NCBI RefSeq assembly: GCF_000819865.1
Contig: NZ_CDDF01000005.1
Coordinates: 808,252-872,251 of the forward strand
Length of the DNA: 64,000 nucleotides
Direction of reading: 5' to 3'
Origin: Aeromonas eucrenophila
Lineage (GTDB): Bacteria > Pseudomonadota > Gammaproteobacteria > Enterobacterales > Aeromonadaceae
Positions 38,771 through 49,651 of this stretch are shown here, in pieces; position 1 is the stretch's first letter, and each line of letters begins with the position of its first letter. Below the pieces are notes generated by a model that saw only the letters and a list, made by a program, of their open reading frames with translations, searched no databases and was not told the DNA's origin. The translations under genes and the position numbers were made by a program.

Positions 38771-39787
38771 ATGGATAACTTTATTGCCGGCTTGCCCAAG
38801 CTGGAGTTGCACCTGCATATCGAGGGCACCCTGGAGCCCGAGCTGATGTTTGCGTTGGCCGCCCGCAACGGCCTGACCCTGCCCTGGCCCGACGTCGAGC
38901 GCGTGCGGGCCGCCTACGAGTTCGACTGTTTGCAGTCCTTTCTCGATCTCTACTATCTGGGCGCCAGCGTGCTCATTCATGAGCAGGATTTCTTTGATCT
39001 CACCTTCGCCTATCTCGAGCGCTGCGCCGCCGAGCGGGTGGTGCACGTGGAGATCTTCTTCGATCCCCAGGCCCACACCGCCCGCGGCGTGCCCTTCGCC
39101 ACCGCCCTCGGCGGCATAGAGCGGGCCTTGCTGGCAGGCGAAGAGAGTTTCGGCATCAGCTGGCGGCTCATCATGAGCTTCCTGCGCCACCTCAGCGAAG
39201 AGGAGGCCTTCGCCACCCTGGCCGAGGCCGAGCCCCATCTCGCACGCATCCACGGGGTGGGCCTCGATTCGGGGGAGCTTGGCAACCCACCGGCCAAGTT
39301 TGCCGGGGTCTTTGCCAGGGCGAGGGCGCTCGGCTTGCCTGTGGTGTGCCATGCGGGGGAGGAGGGACCGGCGACTTATATCTGGCAGGCCATCGACGAG
39401 CTGCAGGTGAGGCGCATCGATCACGGGGTGCGCTGCGTCGATGACCCCGCGTTGCTGCGTTATCTCGCCGACACCCGGCTGCCGCTCACCGTCTGCCCGC
39501 TCTCCAACACCCGACTCAAGGTGTTCGAGGAGATGAGGCAGCACAATGTGCTAACCCTGTTGGAGCGGGGCCTATGTATCACCATCAATTCAGATGATCC
39601 TGCTTATTTCGGCGGCTACCTGGGGGCCAATTTCCAGGCGCTGGCCCGGGATCTCGGTGCCAGCCGGGCGCAGCTCTGCCGCCTCTCCCTCAACGCGGTG
39701 GAGGCGAGCTGGCTCGGCTTCGCGGACAAGGCGCGGCTGACCCACGACATTCATGCCCACGGGGCCAGTCACGGCGTCTCTATCTAG
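38771..39787 (+). CDS. Adenine deaminase (adenosine-deaminase superfamily)
   Basis: 338 residues, amidohydrolase fold. Zinc ligands are visible as HLH in LELHLHIEGTLEPE, the later His of VCHAGEEGP, and Asp in NSDDPAYFGGY. The sequence follows the Pseudomonas/yeast Aah1-type adenine deaminases (FDCLQSFLDLYYLGASVL, FFDPQAHTARGVPF) more closely than true adenosine deaminases, so hypoxanthine formation from adenine is the likely reaction. AAGGAGG precedes the ATG at 38771; 19 further in-frame codons upstream are unlikely. Confidence 0.85.
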   Translation: MDNFIAGLPKLELHLHIEGTLEPELMFALAARNGLTLPWPDVERVRAAYEFDCLQSFLDLYYLGASVLIHEQDFFDLTFAYLERCAAERVVHVEIFFDPQAHTARGVPFATALGGIERALLAGEESFGISWRLIMSFLRHLSEEEAFATLAEAEPHLARIHGVGLDSGELGNPPAKFAGVFARARALGLPVVCHAGEEGPATYIWQAIDELQVRRIDHGVRCVDDPALLRYLADTRLPLTVCPLSNTRLKVFEEMRQHNVLTLLERGLCITINSDDPAYFGGYLGANFQALARDLGASRAQLCRLSLNAVEASWLGFADKARLTHDIHAHGASHGVSI

Positions 39788-39842
39788 CCAGGGCCAGAAG
39801 CAGGTCAACAGAGCGCAGGTCAATACGGGCAGGCCAACAAGA

Positions 39843-39869
39843 GCACGGGGCCCATAACGGGCCCCGTGC
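39843..39869. terminator. Terminator between the adenine deaminase gene and the P1B-ATPase operon
   Basis: Eleven-base stem GCACGGGGCCC / GGGCCCCGTGC with a 5-base loop, shared by two converging transcripts. Confidence 0.75.
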
Positions 39870-39895
39870 GAGGGGATGCTGCTTGGTTCTCGGCT

Positions 39896-41983
39896 TCAAC
39901 GTCGCCCGCGCAGGGCGTTGAGCAGGATGCCTATGGTGGTGCCATTGTGCAGCACGGAGGCGACTATGGGGCTCAGCAGTCCGACCGCCGCCGCTCCCAG
40001 GATGGCGGTGTTGGCGCCTATGGTGAGCCGGTAGTTGTCGTGGATGAGCGTCATGGCGGCGCACGCCAGCTCGCGGGCATCGGCCACTCGGCTGATGTCA
40101 TCCTGCAGCAGGGCGATGTCGGCGGAGATCCGGGCAATGTCGGCCCCCTTTTGCATGGCGATCCCCACGTGAGCCCCCGCCAGCGCCGGTGCATCGTTGA
40201 TGCCGTCCCCGACGAAGGCGATGCGGGCCCCCTCTGCGGTCAACTGCTCTATGATGCTGGCCTTCTCCTCCGGCAACAGCTGGGCAAACACCTCGTCGAT
40301 GCCGAGCTGCGCTGCGAGCTCGCTGGCCCTGTCGTGGTGATCCCCGGTCAGCATCAGGATGCGTTTCACCCCGGATTGGCGCAGCCGTGCCAGGGTTGCC
40401 TTGCTCTGCTCGCGCACGGTGTCGCGCAGGGCCAGCACCCCGATGAGGCTGCCGCCGTAGCCGATGTAGAGCAGGGTCTTGCCCTCCAGATAGAGGCCAT
40501 GGAGGGTCTCGGCCCAGGGGTTGACGTCTATCCCCTCATCTTCCTCGATGAAGTGGCGCGAGCCCACCACGATGCGCTTGCCGTCGATCTCGCTCGCGAC
40601 CCCATGGGCGACGATGAACTCCACCTCGGTGTGATCGAAGTGACGGCCCTGGATGCTGCGGGATGCCTCCACCACGGCGATGGCCAGGGGGTGGAAGTAG
40701 TGCTCCTCCACCGAGGCGGCGAGCCAGATGAGATCGTCCGCCGTGTAGGCGGAATCGAAGGTCACCGAGTCGGTCACCACCAGATCCCCGTTGGTCAGGG
40801 TGCCGGTCTTGTCGAAGATGAAGGTGTCGGCTTCTGCGAGGCGCTCGAGGGCCGTTGCCCCCTTGATGAGGATGCCCGTTTGGCCTGCGGCATACATGGC
40901 CGACTTGAACGCCACCGGGGTGGCGAGCTTGAGGGCGCAGGAGTAGTCCGCCTGCAGCACGGCGGCGGCCCGGCGCCAGTCGCCGCTGAGCAGGAAGGCC
41001 GAGCCCGCGAGTCCGAGCACCCTCGGCACCAGCCGATCGGCGAGTTGGGAAGCCTGCAGCTGCACCTCGCTCTTGGCGGTGAGGGATTGCTGCACATAGT
41101 CGGCGATGCGGGCGGCGGCGGTGCGTTGGCCCACGTGCTCGGCATAGACCCGCAGCCGACCATCTTCCAGCACTGTGCCGGACATCACGGCATCCCCGCG
41201 TGCTTTGGCTACCGAGCGGCTCTCGCCGGTCATGGAGGCCTCGTTGACGTAAGCCTCCCCGCCGAGCACTGTGCCGTCGACCTGGATGACCATGCCGGTG
41301 GCGACGATCACCGTTTCACCCACTTGGACTTCCGCCGCTGGGATCAGGATCTCCACCCCGTCCCGCTCGACCCAGATCTCGTCGCTGGCGGGCTTGAGCA
41401 ATTCCCGCAGCATGTCGTCGGATCGTCTGGAGATGGACTCTTCCAGATATTCGCCGAGCTCCAGCATGAAGGCGGTGGTGTTGGCCGCGAGATAATCGCC
41501 GCTGCCAAGGGAGATGGAGACCGCCATGCCTTCCAGCACATGGGAGGTGAGGCCGCGGGAGAGCAGTTCACCGGCGCCGTGGCGCAGCACCGGCAGCGCC
41601 ATCAGCAAGGAGAGAGGCAGGCGCAGTGGTACCGGCAACAGGTTGACCCCGAGCAGCGTCGCCAAGTTGGCCAGCAGCTTGGTCTGGCTGACGGCGGGAG
41701 CCGCCGGGGCTGCGATCCCGCCCCGTCGGGGTGGTGGGGTTAGCGCCAGGATCTGCTCGGCCAGGGCCGGCGCAGTGGTCTGCCGCCAGTCGAATGTGAC
41801 CACCAGGGAGCGGACGGTCGGGTTGAATCTGACCTCCTGCACCCCGGCCAGATCGGCGATGGCGTAGCTGAGCCCCTGACAGTCCAGGGGTTGCCCCGAT
41901 GCGTGGCGATAGTGCCAGCGCACCCGTCCCCGGCACAGGTGTACCTGGCGCAGGGAGGTGAGCGTGGCTCGCTCGCTACTCAT
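39896..41983 (-). CDS. fezB: P1B-type heavy-metal ATPase, FezB-like (ferrosome-associated)
   Basis: 695 residues. P-type ATPase motifs are intact: TGES (252-255), phosphorylated D391 in DKTGTLTNG, HP (431-432), TGDHHDRA and GDGINDAP (592-599). The metal-site helix reads YSCALKLATP (SCA at 348-350) where copper and zinc pumps have CPC; I recall SCA as the mark of the P1B-6 subgroup. The N-terminal HMA-like region lacks CxxC and instead has Arg-rich CRGRVRWHYR (17-26). P1B-6 ATPase FezB is the hallmark of iron-storing ferrosomes in Desulfovibrio magneticus and Shewanella. The ATG at 41983 overlaps the previous stop by eight bases. Confidence 0.75.
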   Translation of the reverse strand: MSSERATLTSLRQVHLCRGRVRWHYRHASGQPLDCQGLSYAIADLAGVQEVRFNPTVRSLVVTFDWRQTTAPALAEQILALTPPPRRGGIAAPAAPAVSQTKLLANLATLLGVNLLPVPLRLPLSLLMALPVLRHGAGELLSRGLTSHVLEGMAVSISLGSGDYLAANTTAFMLELGEYLEESISRRSDDMLRELLKPASDEIWVERDGVEILIPAAEVQVGETVIVATGMVIQVDGTVLGGEAYVNEASMTGESRSVAKARGDAVMSGTVLEDGRLRVYAEHVGQRTAAARIADYVQQSLTAKSEVQLQASQLADRLVPRVLGLAGSAFLLSGDWRRAAAVLQADYSCALKLATPVAFKSAMYAAGQTGILIKGATALERLAEADTFIFDKTGTLTNGDLVVTDSVTFDSAYTADDLIWLAASVEEHYFHPLAIAVVEASRSIQGRHFDHTEVEFIVAHGVASEIDGKRIVVGSRHFIEEDEGIDVNPWAETLHGLYLEGKTLLYIGYGGSLIGVLALRDTVREQSKATLARLRQSGVKRILMLTGDHHDRASELAAQLGIDEVFAQLLPEEKASIIEQLTAEGARIAFVGDGINDAPALAGAHVGIAMQKGADIARISADIALLQDDISRVADARELACAAMTLIHDNYRLTIGANTAILGAAAVGLLSPIVASVLHNGTTIGILLNALRGRR

Positions 41984-42296
41984 CCTGCTCGCCGCTCTGG
42001 GCCTGCAACTCGGCCTGCATGTCGGCCATCTGCTCCTTGAGCTCGGCCATGCCACCGTTGATGTCGCTGTAGAGGCGCACCGCCGAGCGGACTATCTTCT
42101 CGCGCATCTCGTCGTTGCTCAGCACATAGGCCGCCGCCGCGCCTATGGCGGCCCCCAGCAGCAGTTGCTGGGTGCTGTTGCCCTGCAACTTGCCAAGCCA
42201 GCCCTGGGCCTGCCCCAAGCCAGCCTGGGCGCCATTGCCTTGTGCCATCTGTGCCTTCAACAGCTTCTTGTAGGCCTTCTTGCTCTTCTTACCCAT
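41976..42296 (-). CDS. Small glycine-zipper membrane protein (YtxH-like) of the fez-like operon
   Basis: 106 residues. A lysine-rich start (MGKKSKKAYKKLLKAQ) is followed by a Gln/Gly-rich linker, one short Ala/Gly membrane helix (LLLGAAIGAAAAYVLS, about 45-60) and an amphipathic, probably coiled-coil C-terminus (MAELKEQMADMQAELQAQ). Shape is like YtxH-domain proteins. Its stop overlaps the ATPase start, so the products are made together. In a ferrosome setting such a protein could help shape or fill the vesicle membrane; this is inference. Confidence 0.75.
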   Translation of the reverse strand: MGKKSKKAYKKLLKAQMAQGNGAQAGLGQAQGWLGKLQGNSTQQLLLGAAIGAAAAYVLSNDEMREKIVRSAVRLYSDINGGMAELKEQMADMQAELQAQSGEQDE

Positions 42297-42300
42297 GTGA

Positions 42301-42576
42301 CTATTCCTTCGAATGATTCAGTAGTTGTTCGGTGCTGGCGATACCGACGACACCGCCGATGAGCAGCAGACTGGCCCGTGACAGCTGGCCCTGCTCTAGG
42401 GCGTTGGCGACCCCAAGGCCGGTCGCCACGGCCAGGCCGCCTTGCAGGGAATGGCGCAGGATCTTGCGACCGGGCACCTTGCCCGGCTTGGTGCCGCCTT
42501 GCAGTGCACTGATGAGGCCACCGGCCACGGCGCCGCGCACGAAGTGGTTGGCGAGCTCGCGCGTCTGGGGCTTCAT
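42301..42576 (-). CDS. Small polytopic membrane protein of the fez-like operon
   Basis: 91 residues with two or three short glycine-rich hydrophobic segments: AVAGGLISAL near 15-25, GGLAVATGLGVANAL near 45-60 and LLLIGGVVGIASTEQLL near 70-86. A basic stretch (KPGKVPGRKILRH) lies between. No known family recognised. The ATG overlaps the preceding gene by four bases (ATGA) and the next gene starts 4 bases after its stop, so it is firmly within the operon. Confidence 0.72.
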   Translation of the reverse strand: MKPQTRELANHFVRGAVAGGLISALQGGTKPGKVPGRKILRHSLQGGLAVATGLGVANALEQGQLSRASLLLIGGVVGIASTEQLLNHSKE

Positions 42577-42845
42577 GCCGCTGGCCCTTGCGGTGCGGAG
42601 TTATCCTCCGGCGCGGCCTGGGGCTCGTCCGGGATGACTGCGGGCGCCACCTCGGGCACGGAGGCCAGATGCTGGCGCAGCCTGGCGGAGGAGTGCTCCA
42701 GGTTGCTGAGGCCACAGATGGAGGCCTCGCGCAGTCGGGTCTTCACCTTGTCGACCGAGGCGGTGGGCACAGCGCGGGGAATAGTGCGCTGCAGGGTGCG
42801 CATCGCCAGGGCGCCGGCGATGGCGCCGACAATCAGTGGGATCAT
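42573..42845 (-). CDS. Small single-pass membrane protein of the fez-like operon
   Basis: 90 residues. One N-terminal membrane helix (MIPLIVGAIAGALAM) is followed by a basic region (RTLQRTIPRAV) and a soluble tail rich in Glu, Pro and Ala (PEVAPAVIPDEPQAAPED). No family recognised. AACAGGAGCATCAAC places a good ribosome site before the ATG, 41 bases after the upstream gene. Likely an inner- or vesicle-membrane accessory of the P1B-ATPase. Confidence 0.7.
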   Translation of the reverse strand: MIPLIVGAIAGALAMRTLQRTIPRAVPTASVDKVKTRLREASICGLSNLEHSSARLRQHLASVPEVAPAVIPDEPQAAPEDNSAPQGPAA

Positions 42846-42886
42846 GTTGATGCTCCTGTTGTTGATTCAGATGTGTCGCGGCCTGC

Positions 42887-43225
42887 TCAGCCGCGGGCGA
42901 AAGTCTGGTAATGGTGTTCGATGCGATCGAGTGCCTGCTGTACCTGCTCGCACTCTTCCCCGCCGAGCAGGGACTCCCACAGGGGAGGGGGGATCTCGGC
43001 CGGATCATACTCCACCACGCACGACAGGGCGGCGGGGTTGACCCTCAGATCGCGGATCCCCGGCATGGTTTCGATCATCTGCTTGAGTTGCCCGACCTGA
43101 CTCAACTGGCCGAGCTCGTTGCTGCCAAGGGCCCCCAGCTTGAGTTTGAAGCGTACCCGGCCGGGAATGTGGTGGGCTATGGTCAGGTGGCGGGTCAGGG
43201 CCCGCAGCTGTTCAAGGCGTGTCAT
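42887..43225 (-). CDS. HMA-like domain protein with Arg motif (GRVR), fez-like operon
   Basis: 112 residues that read like a heavy-metal-associated ferredoxin-like fold (HMA_2 type): HHIPGRVRFKLKLG, then QMIETMPGIRDLRVNPAALSCVVEYDP, a pattern of strand-helix-strand with PGxxxxxxN. The metal-binding CxxC of ordinary HMA domains is replaced by the basic GRVR (22-25), as in the ATPase's own N-terminus. Probably cytoplasmic, perhaps docking on the ATPase or an anionic iron-phosphate phase (inference). Nineteen bases separate it from the first gene of the operon. Confidence 0.75.
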   Translation of the reverse strand: MTRLEQLRALTRHLTIAHHIPGRVRFKLKLGALGSNELGQLSQVGQLKQMIETMPGIRDLRVNPAALSCVVEYDPAEIPPPLWESLLGGEECEQVQQALDRIEHHYQTFARG

Positions 43226-43244
43226 GCATTACCTTTGTGCTGGA

Positions 43245-43730
43245 TCAGTGGAAGACGTTGCGACGATGGATGGCGAGGTGCACCGACAGGGCCGCCACAA
43301 ACAGCCAGCCGGTGGCCGCGTGTAGGCGCTTGTTGCCGGCATAAACCAGGGCGATGGAGGCGGGCAGTGCCACCATGGCGGCGACCTTGGCACCCCGATT
43401 GGCCCGGCGGCGCCAGGCGGCGCGGCGAGCGCGCTGGGGCTTGCCGACGGGGGTGGGCTCGGTGATCGCTTGGGGCGAGGGGGCGGCCTGGGCTGGCTGG
43501 CCATTGCACAGGCTCAGCACCCGTGACTCCATCTCGTGCTGGCCGCATTGCGTGATGCGATACTGCATCACCAGGCTGCCAGCCTGTGGATTGAGGTGAG
43601 TGCTCTCTACCTCGGGCCAGGCGGCGATCTGTGCCTGCCACTGGTGCAGTTGGGGGAGAGCCGGGGCCTGTTGTCTGATGCGCAGCCGACCCGGAACCGA
43701 GGCGACCAGGCGAGATTGCGGTGTGCTCAC
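43245..43730 (-). CDS. HMA-like/membrane protein with Arg motif (GRLR), first gene of the fez-like operon
   Basis: 161 residues from a GTG start preceded by GGAG. Residues 5-75 resemble the same HMA-like fold, with SVPGRLRIRQ (11-20) and VESTHLNPQAGSLVMQY. A Pro/Ala-rich linker and a very basic block (RARRAAWRRRANRGAK) follow. Two hydrophobic helices close the protein (VAAMVALPASIALVYAG and GWLFVAALSVHLAIH). No named family. The protein joins the Arg-motif domain to a membrane anchor, as FezC-like proteins might; homology search is required for a name. Confidence 0.7.
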   Translation of the reverse strand: MSTPQSRLVASVPGRLRIRQQAPALPQLHQWQAQIAAWPEVESTHLNPQAGSLVMQYRITQCGQHEMESRVLSLCNGQPAQAAPSPQAITEPTPVGKPQRARRAAWRRRANRGAKVAAMVALPASIALVYAGNKRLHAATGWLFVAALSVHLAIHRRNVFH

Positions 43731-43791
43731 AACCTATGCTCCGTGGATGAGTGAGATAGCTGCACTATCTGCCTCTGGTCCCGCCAATTAT

Positions 43792-43805
43792 TTGATCTCC
43801 ATCAG
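43792..43805 (-). promoter_or_regulatory. FNR-box-like site upstream of the fez-like operon
   Basis: TTGATctccATCAG matches the FNR consensus TTGAT-N4-ATCAA at 9 of 10 positions. It is centred 68 bases before the GTG start of the operon. Confidence 0.55.
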
Positions 43806-43882
43806 GCAAGTGATGAATGGCTCCCAATTTCTGTCGCATGGGCTGAGCATGGGGCCGGGCAGGGGAGAGAGAGGCAGCAGAT

Positions 43883-43909
43883 GTAAAAAAGCCCCCGAAG
43901 GAGGGGCTT
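43883..43909 (-). terminator. Terminator of the Old Yellow Enzyme gene
   Basis: On the minus strand, stem AAGCCCC / GGGGCTT is followed by a T run of six. Confidence 0.8.
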
Positions 43910-43937
43910 GTGGAGCATGGGTGAAGCGGGGAGGCCA

Positions 43938-45059
43938 TCAGGCTGGCTGGGATGCTGTCTCGGCTTGATAGGTCGGGTAGTCGATGAGGCCCTGCTCGGC
44001 GCCGCCAAACAGGGTGGCCGGATCGTGGGGGGCCCAGGGGTAGCCGTGACGCAGCCGGTTTGGCAGATCCGGGTTTGCCACGAAGGGGCGACCGAAGCCA
44101 ATCATGTCGGCCCAGCCCGCCTTGAGGGCGGTACGCGCCCGCTCACCGTCATATTTTCCCGCATAGATGAGGGTGTTGGGGAAGGCCGCCCGCAGCCCCT
44201 GCTTGAAGTTCTCCGGCATCAGGGGGGCATCGTCCCAATCCGCCTCGGCGATATGCAGATAGGTGACGTTGAGATCCCCCAGCAGCTTGGCGGCGGCCAG
44301 ATAGGTCTGCTCCGGGTTCGCATCCACGGTGCCGTTGAGGGTGGTGAGGGGGGCCAGGCGCACGCCCACGCGGTCTGCGCCTATCTCGGCGCTGACCGCC
44401 TCGGTCACTTCTTTCAGGAAGCGCAGCCGGTTCTCAAGAGCGCCGCCGTAGTTGTCGGTGCGGGCATTGGATTCCGAGTCCAGGAACTGGTTGATGAGGT
44501 AGCCGTTGGCCGCGTGCAGCTCAATGCCGTCAAAACCGGCGTCCATGGCGTTACGGGCGGCCTGGCGGAACTGGCCGACCACAGCGTCGATGTCGTCCTG
44601 GGTCATGGCGCGCGGGGTGGCGGTTTCGACGAAGCCGGGGGCGTCGCTGCCGTTATCGACGAACACACGAACCCCGGCGGCCGGGATGGCGGAGGCCGAG
44701 ATGGGCTGGGCGCCGCCGATGTTGTCAGGATGGGTGACCCGGCCCACGTGCCAGAGCTGGGCGAAGATGGTGCCGCCCTTGGCATGCACCGCATCTGTCA
44801 CCTGCTGCCAGCCTGCGACCTGCTCAGGACTATAGATGCCCGGGGTCCAGGCATAGCCCTTGCCGAGGGGATCTATCTGGGTTCCTTCGCTGACGATGAG
44901 GCCGGCCTCGGCGCGCTGGGCGTAATAGGTCGCCATCATGGCGTTGGCCACGTCCCCTGGCTGACTGGCACGGGAGCGGGTCATGGGGGGCATGACGATG
45001 CGGTTGTTCAGGTGCAATTGACCGAGGCGCAGGGGGCAGAACAGGTTGTCGTGGCTCAT
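43938..45059 (-). CDS. Old Yellow Enzyme-family alkene reductase (NemA-like)
   Basis: 373-residue FMN-dependent NAD(P)H enzyme reducing activated C=C bonds, N-ethylmaleimide or nitrate esters. Recognisable segments: LGQLHLNNRIVMPPMTRSRA at the start, LWHVGR, and GFDGIELHAANGYLINQFLDS. The ATG at 45059 follows GAGGAATTC; 37 in-frame codons upstream have no support. Monocistronic, with its own terminator before the fez-like promoter. Likely detoxifies reactive electrophiles. Confidence 0.92.
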   Translation of the reverse strand: MSHDNLFCPLRLGQLHLNNRIVMPPMTRSRASQPGDVANAMMATYYAQRAEAGLIVSEGTQIDPLGKGYAWTPGIYSPEQVAGWQQVTDAVHAKGGTIFAQLWHVGRVTHPDNIGGAQPISASAIPAAGVRVFVDNGSDAPGFVETATPRAMTQDDIDAVVGQFRQAARNAMDAGFDGIELHAANGYLINQFLDSESNARTDNYGGALENRLRFLKEVTEAVSAEIGADRVGVRLAPLTTLNGTVDANPEQTYLAAAKLLGDLNVTYLHIAEADWDDAPLMPENFKQGLRAAFPNTLIYAGKYDGERARTALKAGWADMIGFGRPFVANPDLPNRLRHGYPWAPHDPATLFGGAEQGLIDYPTYQAETASQPA

Positions 45060-48556: not shown

Positions 48557-49483
48557 TTAGAGCCAGCGTTTCTCGCGGGTGAAGCAGACCGACAGCCAGG
48601 CATCCCCCAGAGTATCGCCGAGGCGGGACCAGAGCTCATGGCGCAGGGCATCCTGGCGCTCGATGGGCCACTCCTGTCCCGGCGCAACCAGGATATTGAG
48701 TTCGAGATCGAAGCGGCGCCCGCTCTTGGCCAGGTGGCTGTAGCACTCGATGCCATGGCGCTGGCGCAGGGCCTCTATCTCGTGCTCGACCCGCTGGGTG
48801 ACCTCCCCCTTGGGGGCGACTTTCAGCACTTCCCGCAGGTTGCGGCCCAGCACCTTGATGGGGATCAGAGTGGCGCACAGGGCGAGCAGGGTGACCAGCA
48901 CGGGATCTATGTAGCGGTTGTAGTGGCCATAGCCGATGGCATCGAGGCCGATGGCGACCACGAAGCCGACCAGCAGGGTGGCGCTGAGCAGGGTATCGAC
49001 CAGCCACTCCTTGGAGTCGACTCGCACCAGCTCGGAGTTGACCCGCTCGGCGACCTCGGCCTCGACCCGGTAGATGATGGCGCAGAAGAAGGTGGAGACG
49101 GCGGCGTAGACCAGTGCATGGCCGAGATCGATCTCCCGTCCGCCGTCCAGCAGAGTAGTGATGCCGCTATAGAAGGCGCCGAGGCAGAGCAGCAAGATGA
49201 TGGTGCCGTTGATGACGTTGGTGATGGGCTCGAAGTGGGCGTAGCCGTATTGGAAGCGCGCATCTGAGGGGCGGGTGACGAGGTAGGCGGTGATGAGCCC
49301 GAGGCCCGTCATGCCCATGCTGAACAGGGTGAAGATGCCATCGAGCATAATGGCGTTGGAACCGACGAACAGACCGTAGCCGATCCCGAACAGGGCGAAG
49401 CCGATGCAGCCGAACAGCGACAGGGTCAGGGCCTGTTTCTCGGTGCGAATAAGCGTACTGATAACATGGCTGTAATGAGCCAT
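48557..49483 (-). CDS. Cation diffusion facilitator family transporter
   Basis: 308 residues with about six membrane helices (20-190) and a cytoplasmic C-terminal domain (about 215-308). Overall pattern is CDF, but the metal sites depart from FieF/YiiP. The first-helix pair D-x3-D appears as D48 with Thr at +4 (MLDGIFTLF), and the HxxxD of helix five appears as E159-x3-D163 (EWLVD). AAAGGAGG precedes the ATG at 49483, fixing the start. The transported ion cannot be predicted; the changed ligands argue against plain zinc export. Confidence 0.82.
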   Translation of the reverse strand: MAHYSHVISTLIRTEKQALTLSLFGCIGFALFGIGYGLFVGSNAIMLDGIFTLFSMGMTGLGLITAYLVTRPSDARFQYGYAHFEPITNVINGTIILLLCLGAFYSGITTLLDGGREIDLGHALVYAAVSTFFCAIIYRVEAEVAERVNSELVRVDSKEWLVDTLLSATLLVGFVVAIGLDAIGYGHYNRYIDPVLVTLLALCATLIPIKVLGRNLREVLKVAPKGEVTQRVEHEIEALRQRHGIECYSHLAKSGRRFDLELNILVAPGQEWPIERQDALRHELWSRLGDTLGDAWLSVCFTREKRWL

Positions 49484-49651
49484 AAAAGTCCTCCTTTCAA
49501 ATGGTGAAGATTGAGCGCGCAAGCGGTTTTCTAGCTGATATACTGCCGGCTCACATGTGAGCGGACCGGCCAAGGCAGCCCGAGAGAGGCGGGTCTGGCG
49601 GTCGTTGTCGCCGGTGTTCCGGCATCAAGCAAAGGAAGGGAACAAGGATTC

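Follow-up and report, generated by a model that had tools for sequence, protein, structure and literature searches.

A six-gene fez operon in Aeromonas eucrenophila, predicted to encode a ferrosome system

Gene content of the locus

The 64,000-nucleotide stretch of Aeromonas eucrenophila DNA analysed here (hereafter, the window) carries on its minus strand, at positions 39896–43730, six genes that are identified with high confidence, from the genes alone, as a fez (ferrosome) operon. All six reading frames are open at their coordinates and are separated by gaps of at most 41 bases or by short overlaps, and relatives of all six are retained, in the same order, in four further loci of the genus Aeromonas. 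The tight packing described in the first-pass annotation of this DNA is thus confirmed. The host genome measures 4.54 Mb.

In the direction of transcription, gene 1 (43245–43730; 161 amino acids, GTG start) encodes a FezC-like protein in which an HMA_2 domain with an arginine motif (PGRLR) is followed by a two-helix membrane hairpin bearing H137 and H151, resembling the DUF4405 cytochromes. Gene 2 (42887–43225; 112 amino acids) encodes a soluble HMA_2 protein whose metal loop reads HHIPGRVR instead of CxxC. The annotation had predicted just such a pair of HMA-like proteins, one of them membrane-anchored, and a third arginine loop (CRGRVR), absent from its list, is found in the N-terminus of the ATPase. 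Gene 3 (42573–42845; 90 amino acids) specifies a single N-terminal membrane helix with a variable tail, gene 4 (42301–42576; 91 amino acids) a glycine-rich hydrophobic protein, and gene 5 (41976–42296; 106 amino acids) a YtxH-like membrane protein. Gene 6 (39896–41983; 695 amino acids) encodes a FezB-type P1B ATPase with the motifs SCA, DKTGT, TGE and GDGINDAP and an HMA-like domain at its N-terminus. The most likely start of this gene is the ATG at 41983, overlapping the YtxH-like stop codon; the alternative GTG start in the mechanical list of open reading frames, giving 719 amino acids, falls inside the YtxH-like gene.

The ratio of nonsynonymous to synonymous substitution rates (dN/dS) between the window and the four other Aeromonas copies is 0.06–0.26 for genes 2, 5 and 6, 0.24–0.47 for gene 1 and 0.25–0.37 for gene 4. 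Gene 3 evolves fast, with values of 0.27–0.95, among which the alignment to the copy L020 passes over a stop. An intrinsic terminator with a 12-pair stem (39843–39869, minus strand; z −3.49 versus shuffles) lies 3′ of the ATPase gene, and a terminator-like hairpin whose folding is no better than that of shuffles lies upstream of the operon (43909–43889, minus strand). Because hairpins, the downstream one strong, occur on both sides, the six genes look like one transcription unit.

The ATPase, its partner proteins and their relatives

The ATPase matches the Pfam family E1-E2_ATPase (E = 1.5e-35) and is assigned to the heavy-metal P1B type by TIGR01525 (485.9 bits; cut-off 346.25). Its metal site reads D-Y-S-C-A-L-K-L, as expected from the SCA membrane motif annotated earlier, whereas three further ATPases of this genome have CPC; we take SCA-type ATPases to be those labelled P1B-6, the label that the annotation used too. 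Among 96 aligned FezB-like sequences the triplet is SCA in 92, CCA in two, ACA in one and ACP in one, a count biased towards SCA, which was written into one of the two scan patterns. The HNxxT motif of the last helix formed part of no scan pattern; its H, N and T are present in 87 of the 87 FezB-like sequences that reach it and occur together in none of five outgroups. A search of the PDB by sequence returned general P-type ATPases only among the best 60 of 94 matches.

A phylogenetic tree was calculated from 68 sequences out of 101; to shorten the run, the outgroup L005 and 32 rows, mostly clostridial or similar to these, were dropped. All 64 FezB-like rows (61 SCA, one ACP, one ACA and one CCA) form one group with a value of 100 in the SH-like approximate likelihood-ratio test (SH-aLRT), in a quick search with SH-aLRT in place of the bootstrap and with long outgroup branches. 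The three CPC ATPases of the same genome and the Streptomyces ATPase used as outgroup fall outside it. Placement in such a tree had been proposed as a check on the ferrosome assignment, and the window protein lies inside the FezB-like group, apart from the CPC ATPases of its own genome. To delimit the group, relatives of the window protein were used rather than published FezB sequences, and the rows do not include characterised manganese or cobalt ATPases. The relative with the ACP site, from Cereibacter, was retained in the tree and counts and is not of the six-gene type. A CPC-type (copper or zinc) P1B exporter was also considered and rejected, as the protein has no CPC site and does not group with the CPC ATPases encoded by the same genome.

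The two small HMA-like proteins of the window match HMA_2 with E = 5.8e-6 and 0.0037, and gene 1 matches DUF4405 with E = 0.0036, all three under the Pfam cut-offs. At E ≤ 0.1, HMA_2 is found in 17 of 17 aligned members of gene 2 and 11 of 11 of gene 1, and DUF4405 in seven of the latter. The chosen gene 1 rows (window, Thauera, Pseudothauera, Azoarcus, Magnetospirillum, Hahella, an unclassified gammaproteobacterium, Duodenibacillus, Desulfobacula and two Desulfovibrionaceae) share G14, R15, R17, N47, H137, G141, F144 and H151 without exception, and H19 and the GRxR of the loop HHIPGRVR are invariant in all 17 chosen rows of gene 2. These alignments do not include L102, L062, the FezC-like genes that loci of the Shewanella/Vibrio type carry on the divergent strand, or the short or HMA-only reading frames L085 and L121. 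PMC10979944 describes FezC of Desulfurispirillum indicum as binding haem b and links the DUF4405-type histidine pair to haem-binding FezC. With its HMA-like domain and DUF4405-like helices carrying conserved histidines, the gene 1 product is accordingly classed with FezC, and haem binding is predicted. In Campylobacterota, a stand-alone hairpin protein 3′ of fezB matches the FezC profile (L012:6860-7111 and reading frames in L051–L054), as if FezC had been split; in L012, the sole one run against Pfam, DUF4405 is matched with E = 0.0079.

Gene 5 resembles YtxH with E = 1e-4, under the cut-off. Of 89 loci, 82 have a YtxH-like profile match directly upstream of FezB; among the other seven, five offer less than 170 bases of upstream DNA. 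Single rows are soft, since the profile was iterated and cross-matches gene 3. Gene 5 is probably the best counterpart of FezA, a judgement based on its position rather than on a published FezA sequence. Relatives of gene 4 occur upstream of FezB in 31 of the 89 loci, all of which except L055 belong to Pseudomonadota or Campylobacterota. The small proteins therefore do not belong to unrelated families, an outcome that would have counted against the ferrosome assignment; their families recur beside SCA ATPases in several phyla.

Eighty named loci, the best of 490 confirmed, were kept, and these do not constitute a census. The complete set, in the same order and on the same strand, is found in Azospirillum, Azoarcus, Magnetospirillum, one genome of the genus Shewanella and five Aeromonas loci, and the six-gene order is annotated in an Azospirillum brasilense record. 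FezB identity to the window protein is 65.7% for Azospirillum and 70% for the Shewanella-genus genome, in which gene 3 is recognized by position only, tblastn having given no match. Among 97 genomes of the genus Shewanella, one (L163, G497) has this 70% identical FezB and eight have FezB proteins of 37–40% identity (the type of L071), so that two fez types are present in the genus.

Other arrangements vary around the same core. In Sinirhodobacter FezC alone is missing from the set, leaving five genes. In loci from Thauera, Pseudothauera and Campylobacterota the operon does not begin with FezC, and genes 2 and 3 are separated by an extra gene; a FezC-like gene lies 3.7–3.9 kb after fezB, on the other strand, in two of three Thauera-group loci. 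Three of four extra proteins tested weakly match the ferritin-like DUF2202 or Rubrerythrin (E 0.0006–0.0075, all under the cut-off), which suggests that in Arcobacter and the Thauera group a di-iron protein has joined the fez system. These are L012:2949-3632 (Arcobacter; DUF2202 in the record's annotation) and the weakly ferritin-like L046:4818-5594 and L047:4709-5425 (Thauera group); the Campylobacter protein in the same place, L054:5074-5724, matches neither DUF2202 nor Rubrerythrin. A second operon type, seen in Shewanella, Vibrio, Photobacterium and Kluyvera, has a FezC-like gene upstream on the opposite strand in six of six loci (L013, L061, L065, L066, L068 and L071). Desulfovibrionaceae show the order YtxH-like, FezB, FezC (L081, L120) or just a short HMA-like reading frame after FezB (L085, L121), and in the clostridial stretches searched the YtxH-like gene and FezB alone were detected. 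These shorter versions from Clostridia and Desulfovibrionaceae fall in the same FezB-like group. The comparison separates recurring parts, namely FezB and its YtxH-like neighbour, from variable ones. Iron genes adjoin several operons: feoB- and feoC-like genes (recognized by eye) in Magnetospirillum, an iron ABC transporter in Azospirillum, and feoA with siderophore receptors in the more distant Cereibacter.

Promoter region and distribution within Aeromonas

Upstream of gene 1 lies an FNR-like site, CTGAT-N4-ATCAA (43792–43805, minus strand), with one mismatch to the FNR consensus. Its centre is 32 bases upstream of that of a −10-like hexamer, GATAGT (43769–43764, minus strand), which is the geometry expected for an FNR site at −41.5. 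The spacing is identical in all five Aeromonas copies. The best site has one mismatch in four of them (shuffle p 0.000–0.020, 300 shuffles), which are close relatives and not independent, and two in the fifth (p 0.13), where a second, equal candidate lies 16 bases away. Across 19 upstream regions scored out of 20 (that of L012 could not be located), at most one mismatch is found in the same four copies and in L065, and at least two in the 13 others beyond the fifth copy. The pattern is not rare in the window (three matches versus 0.86 expected; 5 of 100 shuffles reach as many), so the weight of the site falls on its conservation and spacing, albeit among close relatives. On this basis, transcription is predicted to be activated, probably, by FNR in the absence of oxygen.

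A sigma-70 scan of 39700–44000 gave no promoter-like site. Fur control was considered and set aside, as no Fur box in the five Aeromonas upstream regions is better than shuffles; the second-type Vibrio operon L013 has a Fur-like match that departs at 5 of 19 positions (p 0.027). Comparison of the five copies also revealed an inverted repeat, AGATAG-N5-CTATCT (43754–43770), that overlaps the −10-like hexamer. It is exact in the window, L017 and L018, has one mismatch in L019 and four in L020, and may be an operator for some regulator.

A relative of gene 2 is present in 5 of 37 Aeromonas genomes and, in a sample of 394 genomes of the order, in 15. All 37 genomes of the genus have a match to the old-yellow-enzyme (OYE) family, in G006 merely a 43% paralogue. 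Among 30 OYE loci fetched, four (the window and L131–L133) have fezC beside the OYE gene. The other 26 are without fez and have an adenosine-deaminase gene within 200 bases (15 loci) or some 1.2–1.3 kb away (11 loci), the larger gap being occupied in A. caviae by a dehydrogenase-like gene (by eye). Three of the four OYE-adjoining loci (window, L017 and L018) have the deaminase gene after the operon, and in the 12-kb L019 it was not found; in L020, fez and the OYE gene are on different contigs. The genome with the closest OYE gene after the window's own, G002 (97%), is without the operon, and both flanks are about 94% identical in DNA. The 24-kb stretch around the operon has 86.4% DNA identity over 62% of its length to an Aeromonas caviae record, and the A. 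caviae stretch fetched has both flanking genes with no match to fezB or fezC. This 4.94-Mb circular record (NZ_AP026896.1, L177) stands in a plasmid collection and is apparently a mislabelled chromosome. Since the five Aeromonas FezB proteins group together, next to the Shewanella-genus one, within an alpha/betaproteobacterial group, transfer of the operon into the lineage followed by descent is favoured. The new elements here are the patchy presence and the OYE-adjoining site with relatives that are without the operon. Elsewhere in the window, about 5 kb away, a CDF-type cation transporter-like protein is encoded at 48557–49573 on the minus strand (by eye from the translation).

Interpretation and comparison with known systems

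The ferrosome assignment is well supported because homology and gene order agree and the shorter versions fall in the same FezB group. The tree group, the families found beside SCA ATPases and the FezC-type histidine pair all bear out the earlier proposal. Observed directly are the content, order and conservation of the genes, their motifs, the place of the ATPase in the tree, the presence or absence of the operon and the promoter site; from these we infer iron as the substrate, formation of an organelle, the roles of the small proteins and arginine loops, and anaerobic control. Several points weigh against this assignment. The comparison set consists of sequence relatives and not of experimentally tested ferrosome strains, and iron as the metal is predicted. 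The subfamily model TIGR01512, of the cadmium family, scores the ATPase at 363.9 bits (cut-off 313.5), and the Pfam scores of the small window proteins lie under curated cut-offs. The upstream region yielded no Fur box (the closest sequence departs at 9 of 19 positions, shuffle p about 0.79), and the genome has three ferritin-family genes, so the operon is not its sole possible iron store.

The TIGR01512 score would suit a metal-efflux P1B ATPase with helpers, one that expels iron or a different divalent metal across the cytoplasmic membrane and builds no organelle, in the manner of the mycobacterial PacL1-CtpC zinc platform; efflux platforms composed of P-type ATPases and small membrane helpers are reported in PMC9374683. 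We consider this unlikely, given that there is no CPC metal site, that arginine loops replace CxxC in the HMA-like domains, that SCA ATPases repeatedly have FezC-like and small proteins as neighbours and that some relatives adjoin iron genes. A horizontally acquired operon, complete in sequence yet silent or cryptic in Aeromonas, would fit the patchy distribution, the operon-free relative most alike in the flanking gene and the weak constraint on gene 3 in two comparisons (dN/dS 0.92 and 0.95), but is very improbable in view of the low dN/dS of the other five genes, the frames kept in five genomes, the conserved promoter elements and the terminator.

For the ferrosome operon, the following mechanism is envisaged. 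A FeoB-like frame of 758 amino acids, for ferrous iron uptake, is present in the genome. FezB would most likely pump Fe(II) across the membrane into a compartment derived from the inner membrane, whose membrane would be shaped or packed by the YtxH-like protein, probably FezA, together with the products of genes 3 and 4. FezC, predicted to be a b-type cytochrome whose two histidines are spaced by 14 residues, would carry electrons across that membrane for iron storage and release. These FezB and FezC steps follow published work on relatives. The three arginine-motif HMA-like domains would dock with one another, with phosphate or with an iron-phosphate mineral rather than bind a soft metal by CxxC; the roles given to the other small proteins, and the idea that the loops may bind phosphate, partners or mineral, are our own proposals. 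FNR would probably switch on transcription when oxygen is absent. More tentatively, the Aeromonas ferrosome could be an organelle that is optional and under oxygen control: a cassette at a single locus, activated by FNR and gained or lost at one main chromosomal site, serving some species as an anaerobic iron store beside ferritins, with FezC as the transmembrane cytochrome that sets the redox state of the iron inside.

To our knowledge, ferrosomes have been demonstrated in just a few bacteria. Here the operon is compact, the genus can live either aerobically or anaerobically, and relatives differ in its presence at one site, which makes ferrosome function and the proposed FNR control directly testable. 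No literature was found pairing ‘ferrosome’ with Aeromonas or FNR in a search that excluded the founding papers (Grant 2022; Pi 2023); as these may already list Aeromonas, no first report is claimed.

The operon is of an already known kind, of which it looks like a further and complete member. Desulfovibrio magneticus is reported to have a three-gene arrangement, fezABC. Judged from the Desulfovibrionaceae loci L081 and L120, this type shares with the window operon the YtxH-like protein, the SCA ATPase and a FezC composed of HMA_2 and DUF4405-like parts; it has FezC after FezB, with no gene 2 or gene 4 found, whereas the window operon has six genes with FezC first. Six-gene fez operons were reportedly described in Rhodopseudomonas palustris and Shewanella putrefaciens by Grant et al. 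in 2022. By description, these resemble the window operon in having six genes that include a P1B ATPase, and differ in host genus; PMC12016538 also gives six genes for R. palustris. The likeness to fezAB of Clostridioides difficile, read from clostridial relatives, consists of a YtxH-like protein and an SCA-type ATPase. That operon is Fur-repressed according to PMC12574912, in contrast to the window operon with its FNR-like site and no Fur box. Finally, the DUF4405 cytochromes, as PMC10979944 describes them, have paired membrane histidines in common with gene 1, in which the hairpin is, however, fused to an arginine-motif HMA domain.

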